DNA from: a virus
IMG/VR virus record: IMGVR_UViG_3300037847_005401
Span: 1-31,796 of that record
Direction: 5' to 3' (one strand)
Length of the DNA: 31,796 nucleotides
Shown: positions 22,154 through 31,796 of the stretch, one piece after another
Position numbering within the stretch: position 1 is the stretch's first letter
Layout of the letters: every line of letters starts with the position of its first letter
Made by a program: the position numbers and the translations under genes
Notes under the pieces: model-generated
Databases searched by the model: none
What the model saw: the letters and a program-made list of their open reading frames with translations, nothing else
What the model was told of the DNA's origin: nothing

Positions 22154-22410
22154 AAAATAATAACTACGTCAAACTCTTTAATGACTTTATAATTATTTTT
22201 ATTTATTTCAATATTAAATCCAGATGATCTATCATAATATATTTCATCACCTTTTTTTAATACCTCTACATCAGAGCCAGGTTCTATAACCTTAGCTCTT
22301 CTGTATCTAATGTCTTCTCTTTGCTTTTCAGCTAAAATTAAACCGCCTTTTGTAGTCGTATCAACTTCCTTGATAGGGTCTACAACTATATACTTACCTA
22401 CCGCTTTCAT
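22150..22410 (-). CDS. groES: Co-chaperonin GroES
   Basis: 86 aa. GroES forms a seven-subunit lid on GroEL that encloses the folding chamber. Seen here: the N-terminal strand KYIVVDPIKE, a mobile loop of the expected place and type (EVDTTTKGGLILAEKQRE, with the hydrophobic tripeptide LIL in the place of E. coli IVL), KKGDEIYYD for the K-x-G-D-x-V strand, and the closing strand VIKEFDVVIIL for the D-I-x-A-V-I end. It is about ten residues shorter than the E. coli protein. It is downstream of groEL (ATGA overlap), the reverse of the usual bacterial groES-groEL order. Neighbours are groEL and the winged-helix-like gene. Confidence 0.85.
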   Translation of the reverse strand: MKAVGKYIVVDPIKEVDTTTKGGLILAEKQREDIRYRRAKVIEPGSDVEVLKKGDEIYYDRSSGFNIEINKNNYKVIKEFDVVIIL

Positions 22411-23954
22411 GCTCTAACGTTGTTAACCACGCAATCAGTAGAAAGTATAGTTGTTGCTACTGAAGCCGCGTTTTCAAGAGCACTCTTTGTCACTAATAAA
22501 GGATCTATAATACCGGCTTTTACCATATCCACCGTATTTCCTGTAACCACGTCTAATCCTCTACCTTCTTCATCTGGATCAACATATTCTTTTACGCCTG
22601 CATTTTTTAATATAAGTTCATAAGGTTTGCGTATTGCTTGATACAATACTTCTTCACCTATTGACTTAGGCTTTAAATGCATACTAGCATTTAACAAGGC
22701 TATACCACCTCCAGGTACTATACCCTGTTTAATCGCGGCTTTTGTAGCACAAATAGCATCTTCTACTCTATCTTTTTTCTCTTTTAATTCAACTTCTGAA
22801 TTAGCTCCAACTTTAACTGTAGCAACTTTAGCTTTTAATTTAGCTAAACGTTTTTCAAGTCTAATTATAATATTAGGGTTCTTAGTTTCTTTAATTTGTT
22901 TTTCCAATAAGTCAATTGTTTCTTTAACTTCTGGCTTATCGGTAAGATCCACTTGTAATATAGTTTCTTCATTGTTAGTAACTGATTTAATACATGTACC
23001 TAAATGTTCTGGCTGTATAAGATCCATGTCATCACCTAGATCTTCATTAATAAGTGTAGCACCAGTCACAGTACAAAGATCTGATAATACATCTTTTTTA
23101 CTGAATCCATATACTGGCGCATCTACGATATTGACTTTTATATTACCCTTCATTTTATTCATAGCAAGCGCGGAAACTACTTGTGGGTCAACATCAGCAA
23201 TAATAAGAAGGCTTTTACCATTTTTTATAATAAATTCAAGGACCGACTGAATTTTCCTTATATTGGGTATTTGTGACTCTACGATGAGTACTAGCGGATT
23301 ATCTAACTCAGCCGTTCCTTTTTCTTTGTTGGTAATAAAATGGTTGTTTTTTAGAGCTCTATCATATTGTACACCTTCAATCAACTCAACTACTGTATCA
23401 GGTTGTTCATTTGTCTCCATCATAACAATACCTGTTTCATCAACCATCTTAAAAGCTTTTCCTATAATAGCGCCTAATTCTTTATCATTATTAGCAGATA
23501 TAGTAGCTACTTGGTCTATTTTCTTTCCAGTAACTTTTTTTGCTTTTTTGTTTAAATATTTAATAACGCTGTTTACACCTTTATTAATCCCTTCTTTCAT
23601 AGCTCTTTCATCGTCTAATAAAGAATGAGACTGCGCTTCATCTAATATTGCTTTAGCTAGAACTGTAGCCGTTGTAGTTCCATCACCAGCATCTTTAACA
23701 GTTCTTTGAGCTGCTTGTTTAATAAGCGTAGCTCCAATATTTTCTAGTGGATCTTGTAAGGTTATACTATTAGCAACCGTTACTCCATCTTTTGTTATCT
23801 GTGGTGCTCCACTGCTGTCTTCCAATATAACACATTTACCACTTGCTCCTAAGGTTGAACCTACTGCATTAGTAAGTTTCTCAACCCCAGTTAACACCTG
23901 ACTTCTAGCATAATCGCCAAAAGTCAGGTTTTTAACTAACTTTAAATCTTGCAT
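22407..23954 (-). CDS. groEL: Chaperonin GroEL (phage-encoded)
   Basis: 515 aa, a full-length chaperonin in three domains. The ATP site is intact: TLGASGK, ITKDGVTVA (metal-site Asp), KDAGDGTTTATVLA, the equatorial VEDAICATKAA with the catalytic Asp of E. coli D398, GGGIAL and DPLLVTKSAL. The apical domain is present but diverged at substrate-contact places: E. coli Y199, Y203 and L234 appear as Leu, His and Gln, and GFGDRRK reads YGFSKK. The C-terminus stops at STDCVVNNVRA with no GGM repeat tail. The protein is about 33 residues shorter than E. coli GroEL. It probably folds phage virion proteins; host chaperonin replacement is the alternative. It is coupled to groES by ATGA. Confidence 0.93.
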   Translation of the reverse strand: MQDLKLVKNLTFGDYARSQVLTGVEKLTNAVGSTLGASGKCVILEDSSGAPQITKDGVTVANSITLQDPLENIGATLIKQAAQRTVKDAGDGTTTATVLAKAILDEAQSHSLLDDERAMKEGINKGVNSVIKYLNKKAKKVTGKKIDQVATISANNDKELGAIIGKAFKMVDETGIVMMETNEQPDTVVELIEGVQYDRALKNNHFITNKEKGTAELDNPLVLIVESQIPNIRKIQSVLEFIIKNGKSLLIIADVDPQVVSALAMNKMKGNIKVNIVDAPVYGFSKKDVLSDLCTVTGATLINEDLGDDMDLIQPEHLGTCIKSVTNNEETILQVDLTDKPEVKETIDLLEKQIKETKNPNIIIRLEKRLAKLKAKVATVKVGANSEVELKEKKDRVEDAICATKAAIKQGIVPGGGIALLNASMHLKPKSIGEEVLYQAIRKPYELILKNAGVKEYVDPDEEGRGLDVVTGNTVDMVKAGIIDPLLVTKSALENAASVATTILSTDCVVNNVRA

Positions 23955-27707: not shown

Positions 27708-27746
27708 TTACATGCTAAATACATAGATATATCGATACTATATATA
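27708..27746 (+). promoter_or_regulatory. Bipartite motif, copy A (diverged)
   Basis: TTACATGCTAAATAC at 27708-27722 (two changes from the consensus TTACAAACTAAATAC), then exactly 11 bp, then GATACTATATATA from 27734. It lies 65 bp upstream of the first rightward gene's ATG (27787) and is the leading candidate promoter for it. Confidence 0.55.
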
Positions 27747-27786
27747 TAATTAATAAATATAATACTAACGACTTAAATTAAATACT

Positions 27787-27918
27787 ATGCAAAAATACTT
27801 AACTAATATCGAAGCTCACAATGAAGTAATAAATGGGCCATTTGTAAATGACAATTTTAAAACTGCTGAAGAAATTGAAGCAATTGTTAAACAACATTTA
27901 ATAAACAACTTTAAATAA
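27787..27918 (+). CDS. 43-aa protein, first gene of the rightward block
   Basis: Read by hand from ATG at 27787 to TAA at 27918. It begins MQKYLTNIEAHNEVINGPFV and continues with a charged helix (KTAEEIEAIVKQHL). There is no motif I can name. It has an AT-rich leader, a motif copy 65 bp upstream and a hairpin after the stop, so it looks like a monocistronic unit. Its location at the head of the presumed early block suggests a host-takeover peptide, which is inference. Confidence 0.5.
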   Translation: MQKYLTNIEAHNEVINGPFVNDNFKTAEEIEAIVKQHLINNFK

Positions 27919-27929
27919 TATGTAAATTA

Positions 27930-27957
27930 TTGAGAAGTTGTGTGTATTACTTCTCAA
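27930..27957 (+). other. Nine-bp perfect hairpin after the 43-aa gene
   Basis: TTGAGAAGT (27930-27938) and ACTTCTCAA (27949-27957) with a 10-base loop. No T-run follows on either strand, so this may be an mRNA-protecting 3' hairpin, a processing site or a protein target rather than a normal terminator. Confidence 0.5.
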
Positions 27958-27988
27958 CTAAAAATAACAAATAAACAAATATACACTT

Positions 27989-28026
27989 TTACAAACTAAA
28001 TACAAACAGTAAACGATATTATAAAT
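27989..28026 (+). promoter_or_regulatory. Bipartite motif, copy B
   Basis: An exact TTACAAACTAAATAC at 27989-28003, an 11-bp spacer, then GATATTATAAAT from 28015. It is upstream of the gene at 28055, leaving a 5' leader of about 20-30 bases. The flanking 136-bp gap (27919-28054) otherwise holds only the hairpin above. Confidence 0.7.
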
Positions 28027-28054
28027 ATAACTAAACTAATAAAATAAATAACAT

Positions 28055-28291
28055 ATGAAAACTAATAACTTAACTACTAAAAGATTTGTAATCAGAAAAT
28101 CATTACTCGATACAAACACTGTAATCACTTTTACTAACAAAAAAGATATTACATTTACTTACGACCACGACGAAATATACTCAACATTTCAAGAAAAGTT
28201 TGAAAGTATGCCGTGTTTTCAAGAGTACAAATCATACACTAATTCAAATACAGTTCCAAAATTCTGTAGAGATTTAGCTGAAATAAAATAA
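28055..28291 (+). CDS. Small unknown protein, early block
   Basis: 78 aa. Beta-like first half with Thr/Asn/Asp (RFVIRKSLLDTNTVITFTNK), an aromatic/acidic middle (TFTYDHDEIYSTF) and a short helix at the end. It contains two Cys well apart, no metal pattern and no membrane helix. Motif copy B lies upstream and a non-coding, structured stretch downstream, so it is probably a separate transcript. Function not recognised. Confidence 0.6.
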   Translation: MKTNNLTTKRFVIRKSLLDTNTVITFTNKKDITFTYDHDEIYSTFQEKFESMPCFQEYKSYTNSNTVPKFCRDLAEIK

Positions 28292-28368
28292 AGTGAGCTT
28301 AAGCTCGACTCGTAGTTGATAGTCATACTTTAGCGAGTTAGAAAACAATACGAACATATGACTAAACA

Positions 28369-28412
28369 TAGCCTGAATGGTTGGACGAGAGGTTCGATTC
28401 CTCTCCGGGTTA
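28369..28412 (+). ncRNA. tRNA-like acceptor/T-arm minihelix without anticodon arm
   Basis: TAGCCTG (28369-28375) can pair along its whole length with CGGGTTA (28406-28412), counting two G-U pairs. Between them are 11 bases and a canonical T-arm: GAGAGG, loop TTCGATT, CCTCTC. The T-stem abuts the acceptor 3' strand with no gap, as in tRNA and in the tRNA-like domain of tmRNA. No D-stem, anticodon stem or encoded CCA is present. An attP-type relic of a tRNA 3' end is an alternative reading. Confidence 0.5.
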
Positions 28413-28447
28413 CAAACTAAATACTACAAAGTGTAGATAATAATAAT
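28410..28447 (+). promoter_or_regulatory. Bipartite motif, copy C
   Basis: An exact TTACAAACTAAATAC at 28410-28424, which shares its first bases with the tRNA-like acceptor strand, then 11 bp and GATAATAATAAT from 28436. The next gene starts at 28463. Confidence 0.7.
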
Positions 28448-28462
28448 ATAAAACTAATTAAA

Positions 28463-28669
28463 ATGAATAATTTAAATACTACAATAGATAAAATAGCAAT
28501 GTCAGAATTTGATATGCATTACTATCAACTTGGCGACAATGAAAAGCAATGGTGTCATGATGAAATGGTAAATAATCCTAAGTGGCTAAAGAAAGATTGG
28601 GAAGACCCATTATGGTCTGTAGCTGACAAGTGGAAAGCTGGTCTACCAATATATAAAACTTATAACTAA
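28463..28669 (+). CDS. Small acidic/aromatic protein, early block
   Basis: 68 aa, unusually rich in Trp (five) and acidic residues, e.g. YQLGDNEKQWCHDEMV and WLKKDWEDPLWSVADKWK. Probably a compact helical protein. It has one Cys and no transmembrane stretch. It follows motif copy C and lies 20 bp upstream of the next gene, so it may start an operon of five genes. No function recognised. Confidence 0.6.
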   Translation: MNNLNTTIDKIAMSEFDMHYYQLGDNEKQWCHDEMVNNPKWLKKDWEDPLWSVADKWKAGLPIYKTYN

Positions 28670-28689
28670 ACTAATTAAATTAAATAACT

Positions 28690-28890
28690 ATGTATAATCC
28701 AAATAATCCTTCAAACTGGTCTTGGTCAAAAGCCTTCGCAGAAATGGACAAAACTGTTCATCAAGCAGAAATGACTCAACAATGTATAAATCACGTTCTA
28801 AATTATCCCGGTGAAGCTAATGGTGTTTTTATGACACTAAGTAAATCACAACAAGATGATGTTTACGAACTACTAAATGAAATACTATAA
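28690..28890 (+). CDS. Small unknown protein, early block
   Basis: 66 aa. It starts with an Asn/Pro/Trp segment (MYNPNNPSNWSWSKAFAEMD), then two helices, the second being LSKSQQDDVYELLNEIL. Its stop and the next start form TAATG. No metal-binding or membrane motif. Position and size match other genes in this block; function unknown. Confidence 0.6.
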   Translation: MYNPNNPSNWSWSKAFAEMDKTVHQAEMTQQCINHVLNYPGEANGVFMTLSKSQQDDVYELLNEIL

Positions 28891-29075
28891 TGCAAACACT
28901 AACTATATTAGACTTTGGTAGTGGTGAAGTACATCAATACCATAATATAAACTATGAAAAATACGAAATGGAACTCGACGAATTTGTCGGAGTACAACTC
29001 GGATATAATTTAAATGAAGTGGAATACATGTTCCATACTGATAAAACTATTTACAATTTAACTAATAAACTATGA
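28890..29075 (+). CDS. Small beta-rich protein (LDFGSGEVHQY type)
   Basis: 61 aa. It begins with TLTILDFGSGEVHQYHN, followed by an acidic helix (EMELDEFVGVQLGYNLNEVE) and an ending strand. I have seen this arrangement (a strand with D-x-x-x-G-E-V-x-x-Y, then a helix, then N-L-N-E-V-x-(Y/W)-M) as a small protein in marine phages, but no function is known to me. It is coupled at both ends (TAATG with the gene before it, ATGA with the gene after it). Confidence 0.6.
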   Translation: MQTLTILDFGSGEVHQYHNINYEKYEMELDEFVGVQLGYNLNEVEYMFHTDKTIYNLTNKL

Positions 29076-29350
29076 AAAAACTATTAATATCAGTTGGCGC
29101 TTTACTATTAATGTCGTCAACAAGCAATACAACTTACCCATCAGACCAACTATGTTTAGCTTTATTAAACTTAAATGACTTGAACGAGTGGATGTGGGAA
29201 GATGTTAACAACGGAAGACTATCACAAGAACAAGCAGAAATGTATAGTGAATTATTACATGAAACTTATATATTCATTGAAGATTACTATAAACATTTAC
29301 CTGATGGAACTTATTACGAATTTGATTTACAAACTAAACACAATTACTAA
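29072..29350 (+). CDS. Possible exported small protein with signal peptide
   Basis: 92 aa. The first ~20 residues (MKKLLISVGALLLMSSTSN) fit a signal peptide: two Lys, a hydrophobic core and a Ser/Thr exit, with no Cys for a lipoprotein. The rest is acidic and helical (LNLNDLNEWMWEDVNNGRLS), with many Tyr and Leu. It could act at the cell envelope, for instance in superinfection exclusion, but that is inference. Its last codons also spell motif copy D. The start overlaps the stop of the preceding gene (ATGA). Confidence 0.55.
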   Translation: MKKLLISVGALLLMSSTSNTTYPSDQLCLALLNLNDLNEWMWEDVNNGRLSQEQAEMYSELLHETYIFIEDYYKHLPDGTYYEFDLQTKHNY

Positions 29351-29364
29351 TCGATAATAATAAT
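29327..29364 (+). promoter_or_regulatory. Bipartite motif, copy D (within the upstream gene's 3' end)
   Basis: TTACAAACTAAACAC at 29327-29341 (one change), exactly 11 bp, then GATAATAATAAT at 29353-29364 and ATG at 29365. The first half lies inside the coding region of the gene before, so it is kept despite a coding constraint. The ATG follows the start of GATA by 12 bp. Confidence 0.7.
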
Positions 29365-29616
29365 ATGAAATATATACAAACAGATAACTTAACAGCAATA
29401 CTATATCCAGATGGTGGCAAGAAACTACAAATATTCAACTGTCACAAATCAGAGTACGGTTGGAACTCAAGAGATTTAATCACATCTTTCTTTGGAGTAA
29501 GTGATGAAGAATTTACTAAAGAATATGTACAAAATAAAGTAGACGAAGTCTATTCTACTTTTAACAATAAAGAAATAGACGAATTATTCAATAAAATAAA
29601 TAATGAAAATGACTGA
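29365..29616 (+). CDS. Small acidic protein, early block
   Basis: 83 aa. It opens with a beta hairpin (YIQTDNLTAILYPDGGKKLQ), then aromatic residues (YGWNSRDLITSFFGVS), then an acidic helical tail. No Cys pair beyond a single Cys, and no membrane helix. It is driven by motif copy D with almost no leader. Its end overlaps the next gene. Function unknown. Confidence 0.6.
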   Translation: MKYIQTDNLTAILYPDGGKKLQIFNCHKSEYGWNSRDLITSFFGVSDEEFTKEYVQNKVDEVYSTFNNKEIDELFNKINNEND

Positions 29617-29779
29617 ACAAGAAGTAATAGATAAGGTATGTGACAGAGTTGTCAATACTATATACAACGAGCTAGACTACTATATGTTTGAGTTTCTAGG
29701 TTATACTGAAACTAACGAGCAATATGTAAAAGATGCAGATAAACTAATTAATAAAATAATAAATAACTTAATAAAATGA
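29609..29779 (+). CDS. Short helical protein (MTEQ pair, first)
   Basis: 56 aa from ATG at 29609 to TGA at 29779; an upstream in-frame ATG at 29603 would add two residues. It begins MTEQEVIDKVCDRVVNTIYN, is all-helical and acidic, then Lys/Asn-rich. I chose 29609 because the next gene also begins MTEQ with a similar helix. It overlaps the gene before it and is coupled to the gene after it (ATGA). Function unknown. Confidence 0.5.
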   Translation: MTEQEVIDKVCDRVVNTIYNELDYYMFEFLGYTETNEQYVKDADKLINKIINNLIK

Positions 29780-29946
29780 CAGAACAACAAGCAATTGAAG
29801 CAATCGCTAATGATATACAGGATGGTATCTACGGCTTTACACAGAAATGTGGTACTGAATGGCAAAAGTGGACATTTGCACTTATGCAAGCAAGAAAAAT
29901 ATATAATGGTGAACTAATAATAGACTTGGAAAATGGAAGTGAGTGA
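29776..29946 (+). CDS. Short helical protein (MTEQ pair, second)
   Basis: 56 aa from ATG at 29776 to TGA at 29946. It begins MTEQQAIEAIANDIQDGIYG, with a start like the gene before it and a Trp-rich middle (GTEWQKWTFALMQARKIYNG). It may be a diverged duplicate of its neighbour. ATGA overlap with the preceding gene, and overlap with the next start. Function unknown. Confidence 0.5.
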   Translation: MTEQQAIEAIANDIQDGIYGFTQKCGTEWQKWTFALMQARKIYNGELIIDLENGSE

Positions 29947-30100
29947 CATAAATTACAATGTAAATCAGATAGAAGATGCTAAAACATTGAAAGCAGTAAT
30001 GTTCTTAATGATACAAGAACATGTTAGAACAATACCAAACGATCAAGAATTAGGAGCAGAAGTAAGAAAAATAATAAATAAATTCAATGAAGACAATTAA
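29933..30100 (+). CDS. Short helical protein, early block
   Basis: 55 aa, ATG at 29933, TAA at 30100. It overlaps the gene before it by 14 bp. It begins MEVSDINYNVNQIEDAKTLK, then a hydrophobic helix (AVMFLMIQEHVRTI) and a basic end. Mostly helical; no recognised motif. GTG at 29939 is an alternative start. Confidence 0.45.
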   Translation: MEVSDINYNVNQIEDAKTLKAVMFLMIQEHVRTIPNDQELGAEVRKIINKFNEDN

Positions 30101-30230
30101 ATTTTACCCAAGTGACAGGTCACTTATCAAACTAGACGGAAAACTATATAAAGGTTATACTATTAATGATGTTCCTTATGATATACAAGGATGGTTTAAC
30201 TACAAAGGTTTAACATTTGTTACAAACTAA
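30087..30230 (+). CDS. Short beta-rich protein, early block
   Basis: 47 aa, ATG at 30087, TAA at 30230. It reads MKTIKFYPSDRSLIKLDGKL, then a Tyr/Gly-rich strand region (YKGYTINDVPYDIQGWF). It overlaps the preceding gene by 14 bp in another frame, and its stop codon lies inside motif copy E. Small all-beta form; no named family. Confidence 0.5.
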   Translation: MKTIKFYPSDRSLIKLDGKLYKGYTINDVPYDIQGWFNYKGLTFVTN

Positions 30231-30257
30231 ATACAATAGTTGTTCGATAATATACAC
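30220..30257 (+). promoter_or_regulatory. Bipartite motif, copy E
   Basis: An exact TTACAAACTAAATAC at 30220-30234, which contains the TAA stop of the gene before it, then 11 bp, then GATAATATACAC at 30246-30257 and ATG at 30258. The distance from GATA to ATG is again 12 bp. Confidence 0.75.
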
Positions 30258-30482
30258 ATGAACGATATAAAACTATGTAAATGTGGTGTACGTGAAGTAC
30301 ATCCAGTAAGAATTAAATACGGCTACAACACTTGCGTCGGTTGTAGCACAGCAGAAAAATACGGGTGTGTTGATATTATCAATCATAAAACAGGTAACAA
30401 CATACAAATACTATCAAGACAAGATGCTGATACTATCGCAAAACTCACTCGAAGACGCGGATATGGCACATATCTAAGATAA
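30258..30482 (+). CDS. Small zinc-ribbon-like protein
   Basis: 74 aa from ATG at 30258; the TTG further upstream is rejected because it lies inside motif copy E. It contains CKCGVREVHPVRIKYGYNTC and then VGC, so Cys7, Cys9, Cys26 and Cys29 (with Cys37 near) give a CxC...CxxC metal pattern like short zinc ribbons. It is basic at the end (KLTRRRGYGTYLR), suiting nucleic-acid binding. It may regulate transcription or bind DNA; a TraR/DksA-like role is only a guess. It is followed by a 131-bp gene-free stretch. Confidence 0.6.
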   Translation: MNDIKLCKCGVREVHPVRIKYGYNTCVGCSTAEKYGCVDIINHKTGNNIQILSRQDADTIAKLTRRRGYGTYLR

Positions 30483-30613
30483 ACACGAACGACAAACCGA
30501 AACCGGGAATAGTGTAACTTATTATAGGTCCTAATTTTGGTAGCTCATGCTTAAGCGAACAACAGGTAGATTTATCTACTAACGAGACGCAAAAGGTATG
30601 GGCTTTTCGTGGT
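30483..30613 (+). other. Gene-free stretch with small hairpins
   Basis: 131 bp, less A/T-rich than its surroundings and with no useful frame. GTAGAT and ATCTAC face each other at about 30566-30579. ACGCAAAAG (30587-30595) pairs with CTTTTCGT (30603-30610) with one bulged base and a GTATGGG loop, just 3 bp before the next ATG (30614). The second hairpin could control translation of that gene. No known riboswitch is recognised. Confidence 0.4.
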
Positions 30614-30796
30614 ATGAGTAAACAACAACAAACAATTACCAAACAACTACAAAACTTGTATTCTTGGACACAATTCTATCAAGAAAGAGGTAATAAAGAA
30701 CAAATAAGAAAGTGTCAAACTCAAATCGCCGAGTTGAAAAAGGCGTATAATCAAACAAAATCTAATAAAAATGGCAAAACAAAGAACGCTAAATGA
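30614..30796 (+). CDS. Small Gln/Lys-rich helical protein
   Basis: 60 aa. It begins MSKQQQTITKQLQNLYSWTQ and is a coiled-coil-like helix with a very basic, Asn/Lys-rich tail (NQTKSNKNGKTKNAK). It is likely to bind nucleic acid or a partner helix. Its end overlaps the next gene by 26 bp in another frame. A hairpin lies over the region of its start. Function unknown. Confidence 0.5.
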   Translation: MSKQQQTITKQLQNLYSWTQFYQERGNKEQIRKCQTQIAELKKAYNQTKSNKNGKTKNAK

Positions 30797-31121
30797 GATT
30801 AGACAATCAAAAGAGTACCAAATTGCTAAAAAAGCTGGTGATACAAATGTATATTTAAAAGAAAAAGATACACAACCAAAAAACCCCTTTGAACACGAAG
30901 AAGTAGATAAAGCTGTTGATCAAATTGTAGAAACACTACAACCTGAAATATTTGATGCTATATTTGAAGCAATTAACAATGAAATGAGCAATAATTTCTT
31001 ATTTCAATCAGATAATTACTTTACTGAAGCAGGTTTAGAACTATTTGAAGATGAGTGGTTTGAGTTTTATCACGAGCAACATGGTAAAATAATGCATAAA
31101 CTACTACAAAACTTAAAATAA
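30771..31121 (+). CDS. Acidic helical protein, early block
   Basis: 116 aa, the longest gene of this block. A basic N-terminus (MAKQRTLNEIRQSKEYQIAK) is followed by an acidic part (NPFEHEEVDKAVDQIVETLQ) and a Phe/Glu-rich region (ELFEDEWFEFYHEQHG). No Cys or membrane helix. It could mimic DNA or bind a host protein, as many acidic early phage proteins do, but there is no direct evidence. TAATG overlap with the next gene. Confidence 0.6.
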   Translation: MAKQRTLNEIRQSKEYQIAKKAGDTNVYLKEKDTQPKNPFEHEEVDKAVDQIVETLQPEIFDAIFEAINNEMSNNFLFQSDNYFTEAGLELFEDEWFEFYHEQHGKIMHKLLQNLK

Positions 31122-31255
31122 TGGAAAAATATATATATAGATGTAAAGAATATGTAAAAAGTAAGTACGATAATCTATGTAGAAATTGCAATTCTAACAA
31201 AAGTTATTGCAATTATTCCAGAAATTACAAACTAAATACGAATACTATAAGATAA
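31121..31255 (+). CDS. Short four-Cys protein, possible zinc knuckle
   Basis: 44 aa, ATG at 31121, TAA at 31255. It reads MEKYIYRCKEYVKSKYDNLC, then RNCNSNKSYCNYS, giving Cys8, Cys20, Cys23 and Cys30, with a CxxC in the middle. A small zinc-binding fold is likely. It is basic, so nucleic-acid binding is plausible. It is coupled to the gene before by TAATG, and its last codons contain motif copy F. Confidence 0.55.
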   Translation: MEKYIYRCKEYVKSKYDNLCRNCNSNKSYCNYSRNYKLNTNTIR

Positions 31256-31262
31256 TATAAAT
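31225..31262 (+). promoter_or_regulatory. Bipartite motif, copy F
   Basis: An exact TTACAAACTAAATAC at 31225-31239 (inside the coding end of the gene before), 11 bp, then GATAATATAAAT at 31251-31262 and ATG at 31263. It has the same 12-bp GATA-to-ATG distance as copies D and E. Confidence 0.75.
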
Positions 31263-31484
31263 ATGTTATACGATAAATTAAAACCACATATTAAAGATAA
31301 ACTTAAATCTCAAGCTGAAGAATATTCAGTGAGTATTAATAATATCTTTGATACATTAAAACAAAAAAACAGTTACACTGATTTAACTATTGAAGAGATA
31401 AGAACTATTTGTACATTTGGTGATGTATGGTATTATGACTTAACTCAAAAAGATATTATATGGGGTGACTGGCTAACTAAATAA
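31263..31484 (+). CDS. Small helical protein, early block
   Basis: 73 aa. Mostly helical: MLYDKLKPHIKDKLKSQAEE, then SINNIFDTLKQKN, an acidic helix and a Trp/Tyr-rich end (FGDVWYYDLTQKDIIWGDWL). No metal or membrane motif. It follows motif copy F with no room for a leader. It is 2 bp from the next gene. Function unknown. Confidence 0.6.
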   Translation: MLYDKLKPHIKDKLKSQAEEYSVSINNIFDTLKQKNSYTDLTIEEIRTICTFGDVWYYDLTQKDIIWGDWLTK

Positions 31485-31486
31485 AT

Positions 31487-31796
31487 ATGAGAGCGCAAAA
31501 ACTAGCAATTGAAACATTAGAAGCACTAGGTGTTAAAGATGTAACTACAAACAGGCAAAAGAAAAATGGTACAACTATGTTTGAACTACCTACAGGTGAC
31601 ACTGTAGCTGAATTTAAATCAGGTTATATTAGAAAATACTTAATGTCTAAAAGACCAGAACACAAGTACCATACTTGTTATCAGCTAAATCCAGTATATA
31701 AATCTGCTCACAAAGTAATATCAAGTGAAGGTGATTTATATGAATGGGAAAATAATAAAAGAATGTTGATTAAAAACAGAGCTGAAAGACTGAAAA
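31487..31796 (+). CDS. Early-block protein, cut by window end
   Basis: ATG at 31487, open through the last base: at least 103 residues. It starts MRAQKLAIETLEALGVKDVT, then a Lys/Thr region (NRQKKNGTTMFELPTGDTVA), a basic strand and helix (FKSGYIRKYLMSKRPEHKYH) and a final charged stretch. No family recognised. The real end lies outside the window. Confidence 0.55.
   Translation, partial: MRAQKLAIETLEALGVKDVTTNRQKKNGTTMFELPTGDTVAEFKSGYIRKYLMSKRPEHKYHTCYQLNPVYKSAHKVISSEGDLYEWENNKRMLIKNRAERLK

Follow-up and report, generated by a model that had tools for sequence, protein, structure and literature searches.

A bipartite motif in uncultivated marine phages as the predicted promoter of a phage-encoded sigma-70-family factor

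The 31.8-kb virus contig IMGVR_UViG_3300037847_005401 (31,796 nucleotides, hereafter the window) carries six copies of a bipartite motif, TTACAAACTAAATAC-N11-GATA, which most probably serves a phage-encoded sigma-70-family factor as promoter for a block of replication and accessory genes. In the proposed mechanism, this factor would reprogramme the host RNA polymerase onto the block, which would be expressed early or in the middle of infection. The -10 element would be GATAAT (motif positions 26-31, -12 to -7) and the box upstream of it wTACAAACTAAATACGA, at about -38 to -22; transcription would begin on the purine at position 38. A preliminary description of the same DNA had already proposed a phage-specific promoter, and this reading is supported by the strand, block and gene-start bias of the motif together with the presence of a sigma gene in the related phages. 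The sigma factor identified as the likely reader and the predicted leaderless starts are additions to that description.

When up to 3 mismatches were allowed, the bipartite pattern matched the window 6 times on the plus strand and 0 times on the minus strand, compared with a mean of 0.08 and a maximum of 1 in 100 dinucleotide shuffles. These are the six copies listed in the preliminary description: four are exact (27989, 28410, 30220 and 31225), the copy at 29327 has one change and the copy at 27708 has two, and the distance of exactly 11 bp to GATA holds in each. Three copies overlap the coding end of the preceding gene, as had also been noticed: copy 4 contains the stop of the open reading frame (ORF) 29072-29350, copy 5 the TAA (30228-30230) of ORF 30087-30230 and copy 6 the TAA (31253-31255) of ORF 31121-31255. 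The 15-mer alone, at 3 mismatches, occurs 8 times in the window where 5.3 are expected, which is not significant, and thus the fixed spacing matters. The A/T tract reported after GATA is present, although its description had to be refined, since in the relatives it is structured and reads GATAATA, with a purine 12 nt beyond the G.

An exact-pattern scan of IMG/VR found the motif in at least 119 stretches. In 30 IMG/VR records, one strand had 1 to 13 copies and the opposite strand 0-1, and reversed-pattern controls were near zero. Altogether, 664 distinct instances from related virus contigs gave the profile wTACAAACTAAATACGA, 8 poorly conserved bases and kGGATAATA, whereby the upstream box comprises 17 contiguous bp with TAC recurring at an 11-bp step. 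The comparison of sigma gene and motif covers fifteen near-complete genomes, and the counts of strand and place cover 16 genomes. The near-complete genomes have 5-14 copies each; in the 16 genomes, 119 copies share one strand, against 2 on the opposite one, and 92% of the copies are in the early-strand territory of replication and small genes, with the structural genes avoided. The next ORF starts within -10 to +60 of the predicted +1 for 75% of the copies, compared with 14% of random positions in the same block, and the motif site is noncoding in 66% versus 14%. The search on both strands of the relatives, recommended in the preliminary description, thus places the motif on one strand, in one block and ahead of ORF starts; the equal abundance inside genes and on both strands that would have spoken against a promoter was not seen in the near-complete relatives. 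Between counterpart promoters of the window and its closest relative, the motif is 82-96% identical and the spacer 36-64% (mostly 36%). Copy 5 illustrates this, with its flanks kept and its spacer not, and the probable counterpart of copy 1 in this relative (IMGVR_UViG_3300038530_001619:37610) is an exact match.

The motif and the sigma gene occur together. The gene was found in 15 of 15 near-complete motif-bearing genomes, with frameshifts in two and a non-ATG start in one. Among 80 contigs picked by the sigma gene alone, 67 carry the motif, with 322 copies on the sigma strand versus 6 on the opposite one, and the terminase-selected records with the sigma gene all have the motif. Five terminase-related phages (MW202828, elemo 6-9C, phi46:3, phi38:1 and Gundel_1) have neither. 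Two diverged sigma proteins, from contigs of metagenome-assembled genomes (MAGs), accompany diverged boxes, the 52% identical one occurring with ACACAAATTAAAnACGA. The most diverged sigma (48% identical) accompanies TTGCAGATcTATAACGA...TATAATAA, a promoter of the same architecture with the canonical TATAAT at the same position, which supports GATAAT as the -10 element. Of the two possible readers named earlier, a phage sigma-like factor or a phage polymerase, the former agrees with this co-occurrence, whereas no T7-type polymerase gene was found in 32 records.

The protein has 243-259 aa, with sigma-70 regions 2 and 4, and is encoded in the motif-bearing block. It matches the sigma factor family PHROG 351 (E 3e-20). 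The Pfam domain Sigma70_r2 scores above the cut-off in the G016 protein, and 40 of 44 members contain it at E<=0.01; Sigma70_r4 was detected in 24 of the 44 (best E 6e-8), with G016 itself under the curated cut-off. In a PDB profile search, all matches were sigma factors. The AlphaFold model has a pLDDT (predicted local distance difference test) of 77 and a pTM (predicted template modelling score) of 0.45, with uncertain relative domain placement, and the 50 PDB matches listed in the fold search of this model were sigma factor chains (sigma-A/sigma-70/sigma-S, E from 7e-6). By region 2, region 4 and modelled fold, the protein can be placed in the sigma-70 family, and binding to the core polymerase and initiation are predicted functions.

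If GATAAT occupies -12 to -7, then +1 falls on position 38. Among the 515 instances that have no ATG at this position, it is a purine in 97% and follows a pyrimidine in 70%. An open ATG is located exactly at position 38 in 145 of 664 instances, against a mean of 6.8 per downstream position, forming a single-position peak, and at these 145 sites GATAAT begins 12 bp ahead of the ATG. Leaderless genes have been recognized in sequence by TA-like signals about 10-12 bp before the start codon (PMC3160421). Where an ATG begins with the purine at position 38, the mRNA would be leaderless, which applies to 3 of the 6 window copies (29365, 30258 and 31263) and to 22% of all. The transcripts of Flavobacterium johnsoniae are mostly leadered (PMC6847099).

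Several observations weigh against a sigma-specific promoter. The sigma gene is absent from the window, a fragment that ends before it, and for this reason could not be seen in the preliminary description; the window's phage presumably has it past the contig end, at an expected distance of about 4-5 kb and in the same orientation. In the stretch examined, 13 of the 80 sigma contigs are without the motif, and three of those 13 combine an unchanged GATAATA with a variant box (TACACGGACTTAA). In the sigma-bearing contigs L233, L245 and L246, the upstream box reads cTACACGGACTTAA, and the -10 GATAATA keeps its sequence and spacing. In the one variant-box contig compared, the helix of sigma region 4 was nearly unchanged, so something other than region 4 may read the box; just one genome of the altered-box class (class B) passed the filter for the comparison of residues between promoter classes. 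The correlation of sigma distance with motif distance was weak (Mantel r 0.16-0.26, not corrected for shared ancestry). Finally, no host-type promoter stands out that could account for the first transcription of the sigma gene itself: the host-type pattern TTTG-N17-23-TAnnTTTG was unenriched in these genomes, with 45 early and 33 late occurrences versus 45 and 45 for the reversed control.

These points bear on the strongest alternative, less probable than a sigma-specific promoter but still to be taken seriously, namely that the box is an activator site, for example of a 206-aa helix-turn-helix (HTH) protein, and that polymerase with a host or phage sigma reads the -10 alone. Promoters dependent on lambda CII or T4 MotA work in this way, with a conserved box at about -35 to -25 upstream of the -10, and the direct half-sites of CII are about one turn apart; here a sigma gene accompanies the motif, and the HTH partner is a candidate. 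The HTH gene is present in 14 of 15 near-complete sigma-bearing genomes, usually overlapping the start of the sigma gene. A contiguous box of 17 bp exceeds the usual coverage of sigma region 4, TAC recurs in it at an 11-bp step, and the class-B phage has an altered box with a nearly unaltered region 4.2. On the other hand, a second factor would be required, and its pairing with the box is conjecture. The GGATAAT -10 is unlike the host -7 element TAnnTTTG, which makes a host sigma alone unlikely, and no change accompanying that of the box was seen in the HTH recognition helices, judged by eye. The HTH protein may be a co-activator or an anti-sigma factor. A bolder and rather more speculative version is a two-protein promoter code, in which the sigma factor would read the -10 GGATAAT and the co-encoded HTH protein the 17-bp box, the box drifting while region 4 stays fixed, and leaderless mRNAs would be launched in a phylum with mostly leadered host transcripts. 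As a separate observation, the HTH-sigma gene pair is present twice, in diverged copies, in G007 (IMGVR_UViG_3300030104_004476).

A T7-type promoter, read by a single-subunit RNA polymerase of the phage that would initiate at the G of GATA, is very improbable. Some copies in relatives do read TAAATACGAACACTATAGGATA, near the T7 sequence TAATACGACTCACTATAGGGAGA, but the spacer, which would be the site of the T7 CACTATA, is near random between counterpart sites, the conserved GATAAT and the purine 7 nt later would stay unexplained, and the divergent sigma-bearing phage has TATAAT there. Moreover, RNA_pol (PF00940) was found in 0 of 32 records at E up to 10, with a T7 control of 1e-109 in the same tool, although a distant N4-like polymerase lies beyond this sequence negative. 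With no polymerase gene found, and the spacer and +1 statistics against it, this candidate was rejected. Giant structural proteins of 2,300-3,860 aa were also considered as virion RNA polymerases and set aside: they offered loose motif strings alone, and the one scanned had no match to an RNA polymerase family.

Slightly less probable still is an RNA-level element, such as a leader or translation enhancer in the mRNA, which the location of the motif shortly ahead of genes and the lack of Shine-Dalgarno sites in Bacteroidota (PMC6847099) might suggest. The distance from motif start to ATG ranges from 38 to over 80 nt, however, the sites overlap the ends of other reading frames, the spacer keeps its 11 bp but varies in sequence, and position 38 stays a purine at sites that lack an ATG there. 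Chance, or an artefact of low complexity in A/T-rich DNA, dismissed already in the preliminary description, is of negligible probability in spite of the unenriched 15-mer, being refuted by the shuffles, the reversed-pattern controls and the sigma-selected contigs.

The appropriation of host core polymerase by phage sigma factors is known from T4 gp55 (late genes) and SPO1 gp28 (middle genes), which have sequences and cofactors of their own. That phages encode sigma factors with dedicated promoter sets is established (PMC8948821). The closest precedent is phage 7-11, the gp47 sigma of which uses bipartite late promoters GTAAtg-(16)-aCTA (PMC8948821): both are podophage sigma-70-family factors with region 4 homology and a small bipartite promoter set, redirecting the host polymerase, here by prediction. 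Of the features of a 7-11-type set, a repeated motif in one orientation ahead of phage genes is found in the window and the relatives, and co-occurrence with the sigma gene in the relatives, the gene itself lying beyond the fragment. The promoter sequences are unrelated, and 7-11 serves late genes in contrast to the replication and small-gene block; the present set also has a longer upstream box, predicted leaderless starts and Bacteroidota-type phages. The gp36 sigma of phiEco32, with tAATGTAtA promoters (PMC4331800, PMC8948821), likewise has its own promoter set and a start 6-8 bp downstream of a -10-like element, but its promoter is a single element and it has no region 4 homology, whereas two elements and region 4 are present here. 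The primary promoter of Bacteroidota (-33 TTTG / -7 TAnnTTTG; PMC6847099) also places two elements before the start, both of which are missing from the motif, in agreement with the mismatch pointed out earlier. Overall, the set stands apart from the known ones by its sequence, the class of genes served, the length of its box and the predicted leaderless starts. No report of the motif or the sigma family was found in the open-access literature, subscription papers being outside that search. These findings provide a readable regulon, with its likely factor, for uncultivated marine phages that probably infect Bacteroidota, a large group in which hundreds of contigs bear the sigma gene or motif, and the motif allows the block, its strand and probable transcription starts to be called from sequence alone. 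The sigma, HTH and promoter set is a candidate orthogonal expression system for laboratory Bacteroidota, and the predicted leaderless starts bear on translation initiation by ribosomes using few Shine-Dalgarno sites.

Table 1. Predicted promoters and associated features (window coordinates unless a record is named).
Feature	Coordinates	Strand	Details
Promoter copy 1 (predicted)	27708..27746	+	box 27708-27722 (2 changes); -10 GATACT 27734-27739; predicted +1 A 27746; first ORF ATG 27787 (43 aa)
Promoter copy 2 (predicted)	27989..28027	+	box 27989-28003; -10 GATATT 28015-28020; predicted +1 A 28027; ORF ATG 28055 (78 aa)
Promoter copy 3 (predicted)	28410..28448	+	box 28410-28424; -10 GATAAT 28436-28441; predicted +1 A 28448; ORF ATG 28463 (68 aa); directly 3' of tRNA-like RNA element
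Promoter copy 4 (predicted)	29327..29365	+	box 29327-29341 (1 change); -10 GATAAT 29353-29358; predicted +1 A 29365 = A of ATG of ORF 29365-29616 (predicted leaderless)
Promoter copy 5 (predicted)	30220..30258	+	box 30220-30234; -10 GATAAT 30246-30251; predicted +1 A 30258 = A of ATG of ORF 30258-30482 (predicted leaderless)
Promoter copy 6 (predicted)	31225..31263	+	box 31225-31239; -10 GATAAT 31251-31256; predicted +1 A 31263 = A of ATG of ORF 31263-31484 (predicted leaderless)
Rightward small-gene block served by the promoters (predicted)	27787..31796	+	cut by contig end
HTH gene (206 aa)	L131:3351-3971 in G016	-	overlaps sigma start in most sigma-bearing phages

In the window, the terminase, portal, GroEL and tail genes point leftward, and the small-gene block points rightward (Table 1). 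The longest relatives have 60-71 kb, so that it represents about half a genome. In the relatives, the block continues with ligase, Erf, exonuclease, the HTH gene, the sigma gene, thymidylate synthase and ribonucleotide reductase. From the counterpart of window position 31263 onward, the sigma gene (61571-62317) follows after ~4.7 kb in IMGVR_UViG_3300025759_000093. By terminase, Podoviridae sp. ctfjg026 (MW202828, 62%) is the nearest named genome, followed by the Flavobacterium elemo phages (43%) and then Cellulophaga phages, and a DNA search of the block against named phages gave no match. The cultured terminase relatives and the MAG contigs of Sphingobacteriales, Saprospiraceae and Flavobacteriaceae with the sigma gene point to Bacteroidota as hosts, while the MAG labels Aliivibrio, Ilumatobacteraceae and Halieaceae on sigma contigs are probably binning errors. 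The phage's own GroEL is encoded at 22407-23954 on the minus strand (PHROG 5725, Pfam Cpn60).

Host TTTG/TAnnTTTG promoters were dropped as a candidate for lack of enrichment. The enrichment of 8-mers on the late strand of the relatives yielded just TTATATTATATTATG beside the ATG and the GCTTCGGC hairpin. At the major structural genes, TTATATTATATTATG runs straight into the ATG, often after the hairpin terminator, as at the late gene start near 2268 (-) in the window; it is possibly a late promoter or an initiation context.

Adjoining promoter copy 3 is a candidate structured RNA (28308-28411, plus strand). It comprises an H-type pseudoknot, in which ACTCG (28308-28312) pairs with CGAGT (28334-28338) and TAGTCATA (28320-28327) with TATGACTA (28357-28364), followed at 28370-28411 by an acceptor stem and a T-arm that resemble those of a tRNA, with no anticodon arm. 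ARAGORN and Rfam detected nothing in the window. The acceptor and T-arm part has 11 fully paired matches on the early strand of 10 of the 16 genomes and 1 on the late strand. The acceptor sequences differ between genomes yet stay complementary, and the element is possibly a new structured RNA.

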